A DNA stretch of 22,959 bases from a virus. Positions 566 to 22,959 of the stretch are shown here, piece by piece. The first letter of the stretch is position 1, and each line of letters opens with the position of its first letter. The notes under the pieces were generated by a model, which had not been told where the DNA came from, did not search any database, and saw only the letters and a program-made list of their open reading frames with translations. The stretch is taken from positions 1 to 22,959 of the IMG/VR virus record IMGVR_UViG_3300006919_015809. One strand, given 5' to 3'. Position numbers and translations under genes: made by a program.

Positions 566-3500
566 TTAGACTATGAACCAATTAGTTCCATCTGAAATTA
601 AAGTTAATGAGCCAAAATTAGAACCGATTTGGTAACTACTTGCACCGTCAATAGTTTCTGCTGAAGGTGTCTCTATGCTAAGCCTATTTGTTGCAGCTTG
701 CCCATCTTTGTCTTTTAATATCACTCTGTCTCCAGATAGGGGTGAACTAGGAAGTGTTCCAGTTAGTGCGCCAGAGCTGCTTTCAAATAGATAAACATTG
801 TTAGCAGTAATACTGAAGTCTGAACCAACAGTGTTAACCTTGTCTCTATACGGAACATTTTCATAGTTTACCCAATTTGAACCATTGTACCTTAGTAGTT
901 GGCCACTTGTTGCAGAGGTTATTGCTACATCTGATAGGTTATCTATTCCAGAAGAAGAAGTCAATGCTCCGAGACTTGTTGCAGTTATTGTAACTGCGCC
1001 AGTTTGGCTGTTCACTGAGGTTACGGGGAAAGTTACACCTGAAGCAACCCAGCTTGCACCGTTGTAGGCAATTACATCCGAACTAGATGCTCCGGCTGTA
1101 TTTACATCAGACAAATCGTTTATTGCATGTGTATGACCAACTTCTGATATACCAGCTTCTGAAAGAGTTACGTTGACTATTGTTGAACCACTATATTGAA
1201 GTATTTCACCGCTTGCTGCAGAAGTTATGGTAACATCAGATAAATCGTCTATTCCAGAAGAAGATGTTAGTGCTCCGAGGCTTGTTGCGGTTATTGTTAC
1301 ATCCCCTGTTTGGCTGTTAACTGAGGTTACTGGGGCTGTTACACCAGATGGAACCCAGTTTGCCCCATCATAAACTAATGAGTCAGCGGTTGAAACACCA
1401 GAAGTGTTCACATCGGAAAGATCATCTATTCCAGAGGATGAAGTAAGAGCCCCTAAACTACTTGCCGTTATAACAACAGTTCCTGTTTGCCCATTAACAG
1501 AATCAACGGGATATGTAATTCCAGATGCAACCCAACTTGCGCCGTTGTAAGCAATTACATCAGTTTGTGATACGCCTGCAGTGTTTACATCATTTAGATC
1601 GTTAAAATCATGACTGTGACCAACTTCTGATACACCAGCTTCTGACAGTGTTCTATTTATAATAGTAGAGCCACTGTATTGTAGTATTTCACCACTTGTT
1701 GCGGAGGCTATAGTAACATCAGATAAGTCATCTATTCCAGAAGACGAGGTTAATGCACCTAATCCACTTGCGGTTATAACCACATCTCCAGTTTGACTGT
1801 TCACAGAAGTTACTGGAGCTGTTACACCAGAAGGCACCCAGTTAGCTCCATTGTAAACCAATGAATCAGCAGTTGAAACACCAGCGGTATTTACATCTGA
1901 AAGATTGTTTATTCCAGAGGATGAGGTTAGAGCCCCGAGGCCACTCGCAGTTATTACAACTGCTCCGGTTTGCCCATTCACTGATGTTACAGGGAAAGAT
2001 ATGCCTGAAGCCACCCAGCTTGCACCGTTGTAGGCAATTACGTCAGTTTGCGTGACACCTGCAGTGCTTACGTCTGAAAGATCATTTAAATTATGACTAT
2101 GGCCAACTTCTGATATGCCAGCCTCTGATAGAGTTCTGTTGATTATAGTGGTGCCACTATATTGTAATATTTCCCCACTAGTAGCGGAAGTTATTTCTAC
2201 ATCGGATAGGTCATCTATTCCAGAGGAAGATGTTAGTGCGCCTAATCCACTTGCGGTTATGGTAACAGTTCCAGTTTGTCCATTAACAGAATCAACAGGA
2301 AATGTTATACCGGACGGAACCCACTGAGATCCACTGTAAACCAAAACATCAGAATTGCTGACTCCTGAAACATTTGTGTCTGATAGTGCTGAGAGAGTTG
2401 TAACTCCTTGAGACGGCGTTACATTTACCCAATCTGATCCATCATACTCTATTGTTTGCCCAGAAGATGCAGAAGTTATTGATACATTTGTTAAGTCTTG
2501 CAAAGCGTGTGAGTGTGAACCAGATGCTAGTTGCGATGAGCCAACTCCAACATCGCCATTAGTGTCAAGTGTCTCATAGGTTACTCTTGAGTCTATTATT
2601 GTGGAAAGACCGCTGGCCACCCATTGATTGCCATCGTATATTAGTGCTTCTGTATTTGAAGCACCTGAAACGCTAGTGTCAGTTAAGCCTGACAGTGATG
2701 CTGATCCGGCAGTTACACCAGATGGCACCCAGTTAGCCCCATCGTAAACAAGTGAGTCTGCTGTTGAAACACCTGAAGTGTTTACATCAGAGAGATCATT
2801 TATTCCAGAAGATGAAGTTAGCGCCCCTAGTGCACTTGCTGTTATAACGACCGCTCCGGTTTGACCATTAACAGAGCTTACTGGAAAACTTATACCAGAT
2901 GCTACCCAGCTTGCACCGTTATAAGCAATCACATTTGCTTGTGTTACACCTGCAGTATTTACATCGGATAAATCATTTATCGCGTGAGTATGCCCAACTT
3001 CTGACACACCAGCTTCTGAAAGCGTTCTGTTTACAATGGTTGATCCGCTGTACTGTAAAATTTCTCCACTTGTCGCAGAGACTATTATTACATCTGATAA
3101 ATCGTCGATTCCAGACGAAGATGTTAGTGCTCCTAGCCCACTTGCCGTTATGGTGACATCGCCAGTTTGGCTGTTAACAGAAGTTACTGGAGCCGTTACA
3201 CCAGATGGTACCCAGTTAGCCCCATCGTAAACAAGTGAGTCTGCTGCTGAAACACCAGATGTGTTAACATCTGATAAATCGTCGATTCCAGACGAGGGTG
3301 TTAGTGCTCCTAGTCCACTTGCAGTTATTAAAACAGTTCCGGTTTGCCCATTTACTGAAATAACGGGGAAACTTATACCGGATGCCACCCAGCCTGCACC
3401 GTCGTAGGCAATTACATCAGTCTGTGCTACACCTGAAGTGTTTACATCTGAAAGATCGTTTAAATCATGACTATGACCAACTTCAGATATTCCCGCCTCT

Positions 3501-5830
3501 GAAAGAGTTCTGTTTACTATTGTGGAATTGTCATATTGCAATATTTCGCCACTAGTAGCAGAAGCTATTGTTACGTCCGATAAGTCTCCAATTACAGATG
3601 ATGTCGTCAGTGCTCCTAAGCCGCTTGCGGTTATAGTAACATCTCCAGTCTGCCCGTTTACCGAGTCAACAGGGAATGCTATGCCAGACGGAACCCACTG
3701 AGACCCACTGTAAACCAAGACATCAGAATTACTGACTCCTGAAACATTTGTGTCTGTTAGTCCAGACAAAGATGCGGCTCCAACTGTTATGCCAGAGGGA
3801 ACCCAGTTGGCTCCATCATAAACTAATGAATCCGCGATTGAGACACCAGATGTGTTTACATCTGATAAATCGTCGATTCCAGAAGAGGAAGTTAATGCTC
3901 CTAGTCCACTTGCCGTTATAACAACATTTCCGGTTTGTCCGTTAACCGAGTCAACTGGATATGTAATTCCAGAGGGAATCCAAACAGAGCCATTGTACAC
4001 AAGAACTTCTGATGGACTTGCGCCAGATACACTTGTATCAGTTAGCCCTGATAGACTAGAAGTTCCAGCAGAGACAGTTGTGTTAATCCATTCTGACCCG
4101 TTGTATTGAATATATTGACCACTTGAAGCTGCTGTAATTGTAACATCATTTAGTTCATCTAATAAAAGTGACACGGACCGAGATAACCCACCAACAGAAT
4201 TGCTAGGCTCATAGCCCCTTAGATCAATTGAATCTAAAAGTGTCCAAGTTCCGTTGTTTGCGTTTTGATGCCTAAGTTTAAGCTCTGTAATTAAAAATGA
4301 ATTATGTGAAAACTCACTAGGTATTGAGTAGTCGCTAATTACATTTACATCGTTAAGTAACTTTGCCTCATTTGTATATGAACCATTTGGCAAGTTAACC
4401 ATTAGTTGGCACATACCTTCTGGGTTTACAACTCCCCATATAACTAGTGTAAAATACTTATTAACTAAGCTTGAATTATTTGAATCTACTAGCAATTCAT
4501 TTAAATCTTGTATTCTTAAGTATGGAGAGCTTGGGTAATTAGTCACAAATGCAACACCGCTAGAAGAAGGTATTCCAAAATCTTTTTGATCAAAATTCAT
4601 TTCGTGAGAGAGTAGAACTTTTCCTGCTGACCCTGAAAACCCAACATTGTCAGCAGTTGATGGATTTGTAGTTATAATTCCACTAAAGCTAACTCCGCTA
4701 AGCCATTTAGCTGATTGGTACTTTATCCAAGTATTAATGTCTGATAAATGTCCAATTTGTCTTTCGTCTTCTATTTCATCAGACCACTCAACAAAAACAA
4801 TTGGGCCATCGGATGCCACGCCTGAGCTTGACTGGATATGAGCCTCTGCAACTCTAACATGAGAACCAGAAGGCGGGAATCCAGTTGTACTTGTTTCTAG
4901 AACTAGTGATGAGCCAGAAACTGAATAGTATGCATAGTTCGCCTGAAGACTTGAATTGTTTCCAGCTATCAATTGGATTGAGTCTCCGCTTCCAACAATA
5001 GTTTGTCCTTGATTTTCTATTGCGGTAAAAGTATTGTTGGCCTCATATCCCGATACTGATAAGTAAACATCTGGTGTAGCTCCAGAAGTGTATATAGAAA
5101 CAGTCAAAGGTGTAGTTGACATGCCGTCGTAAATAGGTGTAGTTTTTGTTAATATATTTGAATTTTGCCAAATTGAACCATTGTATCTTGCTATATCTCC
5201 AGATTGAGCACCTGAAAATGACATATTTGTAAGATCTTCAAAATTGTGAGAATGTAATCCAGATGCAACTTGGCCAGATCCTGCTCCGATGTCTCCGTTA
5301 GAATCTAGTGCCTCATAGGTAACATTAGAATTTATTATAGCTGATAGGCCGCTCGCGACCCAGTTTGCACCATTGTAAATCAAAGCGTCATTTGTTGAAG
5401 GAGTAGATATTATTACATTTGAAAGCTCATCTAGTGTTAATGATACATCACTTGCAACCCAATTTGATCCATTGTAACTTAAAAATTGGCCACTTATTGC
5501 TGAACCAGTTACATTTGAAAGATTTTCAACAGTATTGTTAACATTTTCCCAAAAGACACCATCGTATTGTATTATTTGGCCATTTGTGGGTGTAGTTATG
5601 ATTACGTCTGTTAACCCGTCTAGTCCAATTGCCCCAGATACACCTGAAGACCCCGTAGCAATATCAGATATTAGCAATCTACCAGAAGCGTCAACAGCAA
5701 GAGGGTGTCCCTCTGGGCCATATGCATAAATAAAAGGAGCTGCACTAGAAAGAGAATTTACAACCATTCTTCCAGATGCATCGACTAATATGTGCCTTCC
5801 TTCGGGTCCAAATTGAAATATGTTAGCCAT
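566..5830 (-). CDS. Very long repetitive tail-fibre-like protein (1754 aa)
   Basis: Probable receptor-binding or tail-fibre structural protein. It opens with two copies of a short motif, FGPEGRHILVDASGRMVV (about residues 7-24) and YGPEGHPLAVDASGRLLIS (about 37-55). Residues about 70-225 hold repeats of the type LSNV-x(n)-GQ-L-Y-NGS-WV. A non-repetitive stretch of about 320 residues follows (about 230-560). From about 590 to 1640 come many LSDV...YDGANWVPSG and PV-SVNGQTG-V-ITASGLGAL modules, both widespread in phage fibres. The last 100 residues resemble a common fibre C-terminal beta-domain (GTLPSSPLSGDRVILKDK ... GSNFGSLTLISDGTNWFIV). It is rich in Ser, Gly, Thr and Val, lacks cysteine in most repeats, and has no signal peptide. 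It sits directly downstream of the portal gene. The ATG at 5830 follows an AAGGA about 14 nt upstream. Fibre identity is inferred from repeat style, not from a recognised adhesin fold. Confidence 0.8.
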   Translation of the reverse strand: MANIFQFGPEGRHILVDASGRMVVNSLSSAAPFIYAYGPEGHPLAVDASGRLLISDIATGSSGVSGAIGLDGLTDVIITTPTNGQIIQYDGVFWENVNNTVENLSNVTGSAISGQFLSYNGSNWVASDVSLTLDELSNVIISTPSTNDALIYNGANWVASGLSAIINSNVTYEALDSNGDIGAGSGQVASGLHSHNFEDLTNMSFSGAQSGDIARYNGSIWQNSNILTKTTPIYDGMSTTPLTVSIYTSGATPDVYLSVSGYEANNTFTAIENQGQTIVGSGDSIQLIAGNNSSLQANYAYYSVSGSSLVLETSTTGFPPSGSHVRVAEAHIQSSSGVASDGPIVFVEWSDEIEDERQIGHLSDINTWIKYQSAKWLSGVSFSGIITTNPSTADNVGFSGSAGKVLLSHEMNFDQKDFGIPSSSGVAFVTNYPSSPYLRIQDLNELLVDSNNSSLVNKYFTLVIWGVVNPEGMCQLMVNLPNGSYTNEAKLLNDVNVISDYSIPSEFSHNSFLITELKLRHQNANNGTWTLLDSIDLRGYEPSNSVGGLSRSVSLLLDELNDVTITAASSGQYIQYNGSEWINTTVSAGTSSLSGLTDTSVSGASPSEVLVYNGSVWIPSGITYPVDSVNGQTGNVVITASGLGALTSSSGIDDLSDVNTSGVSIADSLVYDGANWVPSGITVGAASLSGLTDTNVSGVSNSDVLVYSGSQWVPSGIAFPVDSVNGQTGDVTITASGLGALTTSSVIGDLSDVTIASATSGEILQYDNSTIVNRTLSEAGISEVGHSHDLNDLSDVNTSGVAQTDVIAYDGAGWVASGISFPVISVNGQTGTVLITASGLGALTPSSGIDDLSDVNTSGVSAADSLVYDGANWVPSGVTAPVTSVNSQTGDVTITASGLGALTSSSGIDDLSDVIIVSATSGEILQYSGSTIVNRTLSEAGVSEVGHTHAINDLSDVNTAGVTQANVIAYNGASWVASGISFPVSSVNGQTGAVVITASALGALTSSSGINDLSDVNTSGVSTADSLVYDGANWVPSGVTAGSASLSGLTDTSVSGASNTEALIYDGNQWVASGLSTIIDSRVTYETLDTNGDVGVGSSQLASGSHSHALQDLTNVSITSASSGQTIEYDGSDWVNVTPSQGVTTLSALSDTNVSGVSNSDVLVYSGSQWVPSGITFPVDSVNGQTGTVTITASGLGALTSSSGIDDLSDVEITSATSGEILQYSGTTIINRTLSEAGISEVGHSHNLNDLSDVSTAGVTQTDVIAYNGASWVASGISFPVTSVNGQTGAVVITASGLGALTSSSGINNLSDVNTAGVSTADSLVYNGANWVPSGVTAPVTSVNSQTGDVVITASGLGALTSSSGIDDLSDVTIASATSGEILQYSGSTIINRTLSEAGVSEVGHSHDFNDLNDVNTAGVSQTDVIAYNGASWVASGITYPVDSVNGQTGTVVITASSLGALTSSSGIDDLSDVNTSGVSTADSLVYDGANWVPSGVTAPVTSVNSQTGDVTITATSLGALTSSSGIDDLSDVTITSAASGEILQYSGSTIVNVTLSEAGISEVGHTHAINDLSDVNTAGASSSDVIAYNGASWVASGVTFPVTSVNSQTGAVTITATSLGALTSSSGIDNLSDVAITSATSGQLLRYNGSNWVNYENVPYRDKVNTVGSDFSITANNVYLFESSSGALTGTLPSSPLSGDRVILKDKDGQAATNRLSIETPSAETIDGASSYQIGSNFGSLTLISDGTNWFIV
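945..3881 (-). repeat. Higher-order in-frame repeat array inside the fibre gene
   Basis: The codons for S-S-G-I-[DN]-[DN]-L-S-D-V recur with the plus-strand landmark ATTCCA (ATTACA at 3591) starting at 945, 1251, 1428, 1734, 1911, 2217, 2802, 3108, 3285, 3591 and 3876. Spacings are 306, 177, 306, 177, 306, 585, 306, 177, 306 and 285 bases. All are multiples of three. The alternation of 102-codon and 59-codon modules forms a 161-codon (483-bp) super-unit, repeated about five times with one irregular insertion between 2217 and 2802. The copies differ mostly at synonymous positions, so selection appears to act on the protein repeats. Confidence 0.9.
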
Positions 5831-21467: not shown

Positions 21468-21773
21468 AGTGTTTAATTATAGAGATAGCCGACAAAAGCA
21501 ACCATTTGTAGTTTAACAAATTAAAACCTTCACAAACTCAGAATTGACCCCCCCGCCCCTATCGTCTGGTGTCCGATCCTAGGCTCTATGAACCCCTCCC
21601 CTATACCTTGTCATTCTATCCCGATTCTAATCTTTTCTTTCGACGTAACCCTAGAGTTTTTCAGTACTTATGGCTATCCATCCTAGATTCTTCTCCCGGT
21701 AGCTTGCGCAATCCCCTTGTCTGGAGGGATACTGTTGTAGGCCCTAGCAACGGATCACCGATTGGAGGATACA
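21468..21773 (+). other. Composition junction and leader of the short-gene array
   Basis: The first about 70 bases are AT-rich like the phage. From about 21,548 the sequence switches to C-rich (a seven-C run followed by GCCCC) and stays G/C-rich to about 22,770. I see no convincing gene between 21,548 and 21,773. A frame from a GTG at 21569 is open to 21955 but lacks a ribosome site and its codon positions do not look coding. Four CCTAG/CCCTAG motifs are scattered through it. No clear promoter is visible. Confidence 0.5.
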
Positions 21774-21890
21774 ATGAATCATGGACGATTCAATCCGCAG
21801 GAGTTCATGTTCGTCGTGCAGATTGCGTTTCTCGGAACTGTGCTCCTGTATGTGGGACTTGTCGCTCTCCGATTCAGGAAGAAAAGCTGA
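21774..21890 (+). CDS. 38-aa single-span membrane mini-protein
   Basis: A very short gene with strong start signals: GGAGG exactly five bases before the ATG at 21774. The product begins MNHGRFNPQEFMF, continues with one hydrophobic span (VVQIAFLGTVLLYVGLVAL) and ends in a basic RFRKKS tail, so the N-terminus would face out and the C-terminus in. Third codon positions are G/C-biased like the following genes of the array, unlike the competing longer frame. It is the first of four short genes with similar junctions. Holin-like, regulatory membrane peptide or toxin-like roles are all possible; nothing identifies one. Confidence 0.7.
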   Translation: MNHGRFNPQEFMFVVQIAFLGTVLLYVGLVALRFRKKS

Positions 21891-21904
21891 AAGGAAAGAT
21901 CGAA

Positions 21905-21962
21905 GGGGAGTTGGAAAGGTTCCAGCTCCCCCCCCTTCTCCCCTCTCGAACCTGAAAGGTTC
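21905..21962 (+). promoter_or_regulatory. Repeated leader, copy A (hairpin, C-tract, RBS hairpin)
   Basis: Stem GGGGAGTTGGAA (21905-21916), loop AGG and stem TTCCAGCTCCCC (21920-21931) pair fully with one G-T wobble. A C-run, TTCTCCCCTCTC and a second perfect stem follow: GAACCT-GAA-AGGTTC (21948-21962). The Shine-Dalgarno bases AAAGG lie in that second stem-loop, six bases before the ATG at 21966. Relative to copies B and C, stem bases change in matched pairs. Confidence 0.85.
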
Positions 21963-21965
21963 ACC

Positions 21966-22148
21966 ATGATCAAGTGCGCCCGTTGTGAGGAAACCATTGA
22001 GCGTGAGATTCTGGAGCGTATGCTCCCGATCACCGATCTCGAAGACGTCGTGTGCTCCACTTGTACTTCTCAGGAGTATGCTGAAGGCGGATTCATTCAC
22101 TCTCTCGCCGAAGTGCTCTTCGGAATCGACGAAGAGTGGACTTACTAG
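21966..22148 (+). CDS. 60-aa zinc-ribbon-like protein of the array
   Basis: Second gene of the short-gene array. CARC (residues 4-7) and CSTC (about 30-33) give a C-x2-C ... C-x2-C pair that could bind one zinc. The region between is acidic and helical (EETIEREILERM). The C-terminus ends in EEWTY. No family is recognised. Codon third positions are strongly G/C, unlike the phage block. It is translated from the ribosome site in leader copy A and followed eleven bases after its TAG by leader copy B. Confidence 0.75.
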   Translation: MIKCARCEETIEREILERMLPITDLEDVVCSTCTSQEYAEGGFIHSLAEVLFGIDEEWTY

Positions 22149-22158
22149 AAAGAACCAA

Positions 22159-22217
22159 GGGGGACCGGAAAGGTTCCGGTCCCCCCCCCCTTCTCCCCTC
22201 CCGGACCTGAAAGGTTC
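22159..22217 (+). promoter_or_regulatory. Repeated leader, copy B
   Basis: Perfect 12-bp stem GGGGGACCGGAA (22159-22170), loop AGG, TTCCGGTCCCCC (22174-22185), then a C-run making ten C in all and TTCTCCCCTCCC. The RBS hairpin GGACCT-GAA-AGGTTC (22203-22217) follows with one G-T wobble. The ATG is at 22221. Nearly identical to copy C. Confidence 0.87.
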
Positions 22218-22220
22218 ACC

Positions 22221-22469
22221 ATGCGAATCGACCTGATCCAGCAAGCCAACGCCAAGATCGAAGCTCTCGGAATCGTGACGGACAAGATCGCGAAGCTCCG
22301 CACCAAGAGGAAGGCCCTGATCTTCCGCTTCCTGAATGCTCGTCGGGAGCAGGAACTCAAGCTCCTCAAGCGAGAGGCGAAGATTCTTCGGAGTGAAGCT
22401 CTCGCTTCTCTCGGAATCGCGAAGGACTCCATGAACTGGACCCGGCGGAAGATCGAAACTCTCTACTAG
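22221..22469 (+). CDS. 82-aa helical basic protein of the array
   Basis: Third gene of the array. It has no cysteines. Almost the whole product should be helical, with heptad-like Leu/Ile spacing (IQQANAKIEALGIVTDKIAK, then LLKREAKILRSEALASLG) and many Arg/Lys. It looks like a coiled coil that could bind nucleic acid or oligomerise. No family is recognised. Codons are G/C-rich at third positions. The ribosome site is AAAGG in leader copy B, and leader copy C begins eleven bases after its TAG. Confidence 0.75.
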   Translation: MRIDLIQQANAKIEALGIVTDKIAKLRTKRKALIFRFLNARREQELKLLKREAKILRSEALASLGIAKDSMNWTRRKIETLY

Positions 22470-22479
22470 AGCGAACAAA

Positions 22480-22536
22480 GGGGGACCGGAAAGGTTCCGG
22501 TCCCCCCCCTTCTCCCCTCTCGGACCTGAAAGGTTC
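22480..22536 (+). promoter_or_regulatory. Repeated leader, copy C
   Basis: Same stem as copy B: GGGGGACCGGAA (22480-22491), AGG, TTCCGGTCCCCC (22495-22506), then three more C, TTCTCCCCTCTC and the RBS hairpin GGACCT-GAA-AGGTTC (22522-22536). The ATG is at 22540. The differences from B are the C-run length and one base in the following pyrimidine stretch. Confidence 0.87.
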
Positions 22537-22539
22537 ACC

Positions 22540-22725
22540 ATGAACATGACTCTCACCTACTTCAAGAAGATCGCCGACGTTGGACCGGGCGGAATCAAGT
22601 GTCCGTGCTGCTGCAAGTGGGGTACGTTCGTCGGATCGAAGCAGTCGCCGAAGGTCAAGAAGGCGGTGCGCAAGTGGACCCGCTCCAAGCTCAAGCGAGA
22701 GCTGCAGCGCGAACTGCAAGGTTGA
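22540..22725 (+). CDS. 61-aa Cys-cluster basic protein of the array
   Basis: Fourth and last gene of the array. A CPCCC cluster (about residues 21-25, in GGIKCPCCCKWGTF) could ligate zinc or another metal, perhaps as a dimer since no second pair is present. The C-terminal half is strongly basic and helical (KVKKAVRKWTRSKLKRELQR), suited to nucleic-acid binding. No family is recognised. The ribosome site is AAAGG in leader copy C. An intrinsic terminator follows five bases after its TGA. Confidence 0.72.
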   Translation: MNMTLTYFKKIADVGPGGIKCPCCCKWGTFVGSKQSPKVKKAVRKWTRSKLKRELQRELQG

Positions 22726-22730
22726 CCAGT

Positions 22731-22767
22731 GAGAGGGGAGGGTTTCGGCCCTCCTCTCTTTTTTTTT
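22731..22767 (+). terminator. Intrinsic terminator ending the short-gene array
   Basis: GAGAGGGGAGGG (22731-22742), loop TTTCGG and CCCTCCTCTC (22749-22758) form a G/C-rich stem with a two-base bulge, followed at once by nine T residues (22759-22767). This is a canonical Rho-independent terminator. It contrasts with the hairpins inside the array, which are followed by C rather than T. Confidence 0.92.
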
Positions 22768-22869
22768 GAAAATGAGTGCGGCGACCAGCCGCTAAGCTTA
22801 CCGCTGCGGGCAGCAATTGAAAAAGTAGTTGAGCAAAAACCGTGGAATTCCAATCGGGGGCGAGCCGTT

Positions 22870-22885
22870 TGGCATGATATTTGCA
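22870..22885 (+). promoter_or_regulatory. Sigma-54-type promoter
   Basis: TGGCATGATATTTGCA matches the -24/-12 consensus TGGCAYG-N4-TTGCW in nearly every position, with GG and GC separated by exactly ten bases. Transcription would start near 22,896 and run rightward out of the window. An inverted repeat CAACTG-TGA-CAGTTG (22884-22898) overlaps the -12 element. The 100 bases before it hold no gene, only small palindromes such as GCGGC-N5-GCCGC and GCTGC-GG-GCAGC. No activator site can be named. Chance matches occur, but this one is strong. Confidence 0.6.
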
Positions 22886-22914
22886 ACTGTGACAGTTGTG
22901 TCAGATTGTCGAGT

Positions 22915-22952
22915 CTGTAGTGACACTAATATATTATTAATATATTCTACAG
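22915..22952. repeat. Nested palindrome at the right edge
   Basis: CTGTAG (22915-22920) and CTACAG (22947-22952) enclose AATATATT-ATT-AATATATT (22928-22946), with an unpaired TGACACT on one side. Upstream, TGACA-GTTG-TGTCA (22890-22903) adds another dyad, and TGACAC at 22921 repeats its arm inverted. It could be an operator or leader structure for a gene just outside the window. Confidence 0.5.
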
Positions 22953-22959
22953 TGGGCGA

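Follow-up and report, generated by a model that had tools for sequence, protein, structure and literature searches.

A repeated hairpin leader at three start codons of a small phage operon, with stem changes that keep pairing

Introduction

Why does the same short leader stand before three unrelated small genes of one phage operon, and is it the RNA fold of this leader, rather than its DNA sequence, that is under selection? Repeated start-associated elements have already been described in phages; in the best-described case (ESAS), the inverted repeats do not behave as RNA hairpins. The SAS of cluster K mycobacteriophages is a 13-bp repeat (GGGATAGGAGCCC) lying a few nucleotides from the start codon, and the ESAS are imperfect inverted repeats of 17 bp, set 4-13 bp apart and located upstream of the SAS (Pope et al. 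2011, PMC3203893). These elements number 11-19 across a genome, and the authors found little support for ESAS as mRNA hairpins and reported that differences between the two arms generally fail to keep pairing (PMC3203893).

The operon and its contig

The window (the whole 22,959-nucleotide stretch that was analysed) is an uncultured virus's contig representing a tailed-phage fragment, with family matches to terminase, portal, ribonucleotide reductase and others. The leaders sit near the contig end in a compact plus-strand operon of four small ORFs (38, 60, 82 and 61 aa), which consists of the following features.

21774-21890, plus strand: ORF1, 38 aa, the first gene of the operon, a predicted small membrane protein (MNHGRFNPQEFMFVVQIAFLGTVLLYVGLVALRFRKKS), its membrane character judged by eye
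21966-22148, plus strand: ORF2, 60 aa, with two CxxC motifs, zinc-ribbon-like (below the cut-off)
22221-22469, plus strand: ORF3, 82 aa, lysine/arginine-rich, no convincing relatives found
22540-22725, plus strand: ORF4, 61 aa, with a CPCC motif and a basic tail, no relatives found
22731-22767, plus strand: strong intrinsic terminator at the operon end, 13 pairs and a T run

ORF1 starts from an ordinary GGAGG ribosome-binding site and has no leader hairpin, and ORF2, ORF3 and ORF4 are each preceded by a leader. A family search with ORF1 gave no match, and the best Pfam match of ORF2 was PF17848 with E=0.036, below the cut-off. A long ORF on the minus strand covering the leaders (21744-22556) was considered and taken as a shadow of the GC-rich plus-strand genes.

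The operon (window 21546-22770) shows a third-position G+C of 0.59-0.81 versus 0.22-0.29 in the phage genes, and a codon score of -1.7 to -2.2 versus -0.85 to -1.16. Since this codon usage is very unlike that of the rest of the contig, the operon is either a recent import or the product of a chimeric join. The AT-rich/GC-rich join is present in two contigs, the assemblies of which are possibly not independent, and its presence in both argues for a real import of the operon. Four of the 13 substitutions that separate the window from the second contig, IMGVR_UViG_3300006802_000236, are packed into 34 bases beside the join (21578-21611); given this cluster, joining of the operon to the phage as an assembly chimera is still to be reckoned with.

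Two further features of the contig were recorded. A sigma-54 promoter-like sequence, TGGCATGATATTTGC, occurs at 22870-22884, past the operon terminator; the stretch that follows it is AT-rich and full of palindromes. At the other end, window 566-5830 encodes a repetitive protein of 1754 aa, probably a tail fibre or adhesin, in which a unit of the LSDVNTSGV/VNGQTG type recurs many times in nearly identical form.

Anatomy of the leaders

All three leader copies (A, B and C, before ORF2, ORF3 and ORF4) lie on the sense strand in the short interval from a stop codon to the ATG that follows it, and the ORFs behind them are unrelated. The order from 5' to 3' is fixed: the stop codon, 14, 10 or 10 nt, hairpin 1, a C run with a pyrimidine tract, hairpin 2, ACC and ATG. 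The component parts are as follows.

21905-21931, plus strand: leader A hairpin 1, GGGGAGTTGGAA-AGG-TTCCAGCTCCCC, 12 pairs including one U·G, -20.3 kcal/mol alone, 14 nt past the ORF1 stop
21932-21947, plus strand: leader A pyrimidine tract, CCCCTTCTCCCCTCTC, joining both hairpins
21948-21962, plus strand: leader A hairpin 2, GAACCT-GAA-AGGTTC, -5.0 kcal/mol, 3 nt before ATG
22159-22185, plus strand: leader B hairpin 1, GGGGGACCGGAA-AGG-TTCCGGTCCCCC, 12 Watson-Crick pairs, -24.2 kcal/mol alone, 10 nt past the ORF2 stop
22186-22202, plus strand: leader B pyrimidine tract
22203-22217, plus strand: leader B hairpin 2, GGACCT-GAA-AGGTTC, one G·U, -4.5 kcal/mol
22480-22506, plus strand: leader C hairpin 1, the same stem as in B (GGGGGACCGGAA-AGG-TTCCGGTCCCCC), -24.2 kcal/mol, 10 nt past the ORF3 stop
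22507-22521, plus strand: leader C pyrimidine tract, its C run one base shorter than in the sister contig IMGVR_UViG_3300006802_000236 (G001)
22522-22536, plus strand: leader C hairpin 2, GGACCT-GAA-AGGTTC, -4.5 kcal/mol

The stem of hairpin 1 is separated from the ATG by 33-35 nt, and the tract measures 15-17 nt and is nearly all pyrimidine. Hairpin 2 (GRACCU-GAA-AGGUUC) is a weaker, 6-pair hairpin over the Shine-Dalgarno AAAGG of each leader, and the single difference between its copies, A-U to G·U, retains the pairing. The 9-mer GAAAGGTTC has six occurrences in the window, all within the leaders and two in each, one at the tip of hairpin 1 and the other at the Shine-Dalgarno. Leaders B and C are near-identical over ~80 nt, the end of the preceding ORF included. 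What the letters show directly is a set of parts in fixed order and at fixed spacing, repeated before three unrelated genes with the pairing retained.

Folding predictions gave a formation probability of 0.96 for stem 1, both within the entire operon and in shorter contexts of 60-250 nt. The Shine-Dalgarno had an unpaired probability of 0.43-0.55, i.e. it is predicted to be partly paired. That of the tract was 0.30-0.76 depending on context; the larger folds left only about half of the tract unpaired, and in leader C some contexts made hairpin 2 unstable. The folding energy of the whole leader was only mildly better than that of shuffles (z of -1.3 to -1.7), because the composition already favours G-C pairing. 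Competition between hairpins 1 and 2 for GRACCU was entertained and dropped, since stem 1 (-20 to -24 kcal/mol) far outweighs hairpin 2 (-4.5 to -5). As a separate observation, the tract CTCCCCTCTC, found in leaders A and C (21938-21947 and 22512-22521), shows 10 nt of complementarity to the 5' arm of the terminator (22731-22742), which may be a chance match, one side being purine-rich and the other pyrimidine-rich.

Covariation in the stem of hairpin 1

The initial annotation had described a 12-bp pairing and an AGG loop that are unchanged between copies, three pairs that are altered on both arms between A and B/C, and a fourth pair that passes from a wobble to C-G. The comparison of the copies bears out this description: all three stems have 12 pairs and an AGG loop, the pairs altered on both arms are pairs 5, 6 and 8 (numbered from the stem base), and the wobble is pair 7, U·G in copy A and C-G in B/C. 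From A to B/C, pair 5 changes from A-T to G-C, pair 6 from G-C to A-T, pair 7 from T·G to C-G, and pair 8 from T-A to C-G. These pairs form a contiguous block, and the eight remaining pairs and the loop are the same in A, B and C. All seven substitutions are transitions. The stems of B and C are identical, leaving two distinct stem versions among the three copies.

The divergence is concentrated in this stem, where 7 of 24 positions differ with every pair retained, and outside it 1-2 of the last 37 positions differ. The leader can be written as the pattern GGGGNNNNGGAAAGGTTCCNNNNCCCC. With N at the four variable pairs, the stem motif matched three sense-strand places in the window with zero mismatches, and none of 100 shuffled windows contained a match even with up to 3 mismatches allowed.

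The same annotation had taken the compensatory changes as direct evidence that the RNA structure is selected. The pattern itself is real and selection on the helix is its likeliest cause; the word "direct" has to be given up, as the evidence comes from two distinct stems. The statistical check of covariation, a column-shuffle test, gave no significance (63 of 500 shuffles reached the observed values), because two rows with three or four informative pairs leave it almost no power. Under a null of unconstrained mutation (7 random substitutions over 24 stem positions), the probability that all pairs are kept with at least 3 double changes was 1.4e-4 to 1.6e-4, and under a transitions-only null it was 4.7e-3 to 5.9e-3.

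Because the seven changes are without exception transitions, a path via G·U exists for each double change. This transitions-only pattern, together with the U·G at pair 7 of copy A, favours stepwise selection on an RNA helix as the probable origin of the changes. In addition, both hairpins tolerate G·U pairs, which would disrupt a DNA dyad. It is therefore likely that the RNA fold itself is under selection, in the sense that the fold is preferred over the sequence at pairs 5-8 and that the stem forms in RNA. Coming from two distinct stems in one virus population, the covariation suggests, rather than proves, that the fold matters for expression.

Distribution of the leader

Viral contigs were searched with four DNA patterns of falling strictness and with two protein queries from the downstream genes, and genome contigs were searched with ORF4 and a leader pattern. 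The sole other carrier was IMGVR_UViG_3300006802_000236 (36.8 kb), which is 99.94% identical to the window over 22,743 bases and has the same three leaders, apart from one extra C in the C run of copy C; no copies of the leader or its genes beyond this contig were found in the viral and genome contigs. Searches of a phage collection by blastn and tblastn, and a search of a plasmid collection, found nothing similar to the leader or its genes. One unrelated match, before a capsid-like gene (L005), had only ACCTGAAAGGTTCACCATG in common with the leaders and lacked both hairpin 1 and the C-rich tract; the most plausible reading is a ribosome-binding site that arose by chance or convergence.

No further contig came from a query with ThyX. 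Relatives found through the terminase, L016 and L017 (68% identity), end near window 17.3 kb, and the leader region falls outside them. These two relatives, L017 and L016 (records G003 and G002), carry inserts of ~1.3 kb in the terminase (window 9385 and 9475) and more in the reductase region, which are possibly introns or inteins.

Comparison with known systems

In the way it would work, the leader most resembles the SAS/ESAS repeats of cluster K mycobacteriophages, yet on its sequence it is not a member of them. Like SAS/ESAS, it is a short sense-strand repeat directly 5' of the start codons of non-structural phage genes, in the Shine-Dalgarno position, and the repeat occurs at several translation starts in one orientation (3 of 3 copies at ATG on the sense strand). 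A further likeness, shared with some SAS copies, is an inverted repeat immediately 5' of it (PMC3203893). Unlike the ESAS, the leader has a stem of 12 pairs with a 3-nt loop and no accompanying SAS, there being no match to GGGATAGGAGCCC in 21540-22959 even with 3 mismatches; its arm changes keep the pairing; and it is confined to three copies in one operon, as opposed to 11-19 genome-wide.

The PeSL cassettes of T4-like phages (Arbiol 2010; Comeau 2014), as outlined via PMC4503421, combine an early promoter with a stem-loop. Going by that outline, the leaders resemble them as stem-loop cassettes between small phage genes and differ from them in that no early promoter was seen in the leaders. 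A scan for sigma-70-like sites, which covers this promoter type, found none in 21891-22542. The leaders do not have the form of intrinsic terminators, as poly-C follows the stem on the plus strand. The only intrinsic terminator on the plus strand is that at 22731-22767, and the minus-strand entries include copy B, whose T-rich tail is weak. Rfam gave no match in the window at the gathering threshold, and a lax search returned weak chance matches only.

Early mRNA of phage T7 carries intercistronic RNase III hairpins between its small early genes. The leaders share with them the position of hairpins between small genes, but their stem is shorter (12 pairs) and of other sequence. The tisB mRNA of Escherichia coli has a landing site ~100 nt upstream and needs a pseudoknot (PMC7708055). 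The leader would be like this standby leader (PMC7708055) in its Shine-Dalgarno, predicted to be partly sequestered, and in the combination of upstream structure with a tract predicted to be partly single-stranded, but all its elements lie within ~65 nt.

Discussion

The best explanation, put forward tentatively and with somewhat less than even confidence, is that the leader is an intercistronic RNA module which gives each of the three small genes its own translation start. If the RNA fold is selected, then its role probably lies in translation start or in cistron separation. The strong 12-pair stem-loop, placed 10-14 nt past the stop codon and approximately where a terminating ribosome ends, would separate the cistrons; with less confidence, it may do so by blocking run-on ribosomes or by protecting the 3' end. 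The stem might also keep the 15-17 nt pyrimidine tract free as a landing (standby) site, again a less confident proposal, from which the 30S subunit would open the weak 6-pair hairpin over the Shine-Dalgarno AAAGG. Hairpin 2 would thus temper the Shine-Dalgarno, with ACC-ATG coming next. The standby step specifically is doubtful, being weakened by the predicted folds, the larger of which open only about half of the tract and some of which do not hold hairpin 2 of leader C stably. The lack of a T run after the stem on the plus strand and of a promoter-like site inside the leaders both count for the module.

Mutational homogenisation offers a different origin for the covariation: a single step, either quasi-palindrome template switching or recombination of leader cassettes, would have produced the paired changes, and the RNA fold would not have been selected. 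The changed block consists of four neighbouring pairs, which is compatible with one event, and template switching has been proposed to give multi-base compensatory changes in a single event (PMC8794818). Cassette copying has indeed occurred here, as the near-identity of B and C extends into the end of the preceding ORF. However, copying of one arm yields perfect Watson-Crick pairs, yet copy A holds a T·G in the middle of the block; the consistent transitions (7/7) are not required by copying; and the conservation of the rest of the leader and its placement at start codons are left unexplained. Such an origin is considered unlikely.

Distinctly unlikely, too, is an element of transcription or RNA processing, whether an attenuator, Rho-dependent or of another kind, or a hairpin that marks an mRNA end or a processing site and tunes gene dosage. 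Usual rut sites are much longer than the 15-17 nt C-rich tract, and usual RNase III substrates are longer than a 12-pair stem. These lengths, and the absence of a U tract after the leaders on the plus strand, speak against this element, although a strong hairpin is followed by 15-17 nt of almost pure pyrimidine (C-rich, G-poor) in each leader, and a normal terminator closes the operon, with a 5' arm that complements the tract over 10 nt.

The double changes preserve a DNA dyad as well as an RNA helix, and DNA binding was the preference of Pope et al. for the ESAS (PMC3203893). A protein-binding site repeated along the operon, such as an operator, which is a reading also advanced for the ESAS, is nonetheless distinctly improbable for the leaders: the T·G in copy A breaks DNA symmetry but leaves the RNA helix intact; half-sites bound by a protein would retain their sequence, whereas in the leaders it is their middle that varies; and the 3-nt spacer with a 12-pair stem, the sense orientation and the fixed distance to the ATG suit RNA better.

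It is improbable that the leaders constitute a small translational regulon, in which a phage- or host-encoded regulator reads GAAAGGUUC and the three genes are switched together; GAAAGGUUC stands twice in each leader, at the hairpin tip and at the Shine-Dalgarno, and the tip would act as a mimic of the ribosome site. Very improbable is a PeSL-like mobile or recombination cassette whose repeats serve gene shuffling and whose hairpin is incidental, for although the leader recurs between small ORFs that are unrelated and foreign in codon usage, and B and C resemble recent duplicates, PeSLs consist of an early promoter and a stem-loop, no promoter-like site was found in the leaders, and the most conserved part of the leader is the start-codon-proximal one.

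At present, what is new here is a start-associated repeat whose stem changes keep pairing, as seen in two distinct stems of one virus population. A pairing-keeping hairpin family on three cistrons of a compact operon would provide a clean system for asking whether cistron-by-cistron translation in phages draws on a portable RNA module.
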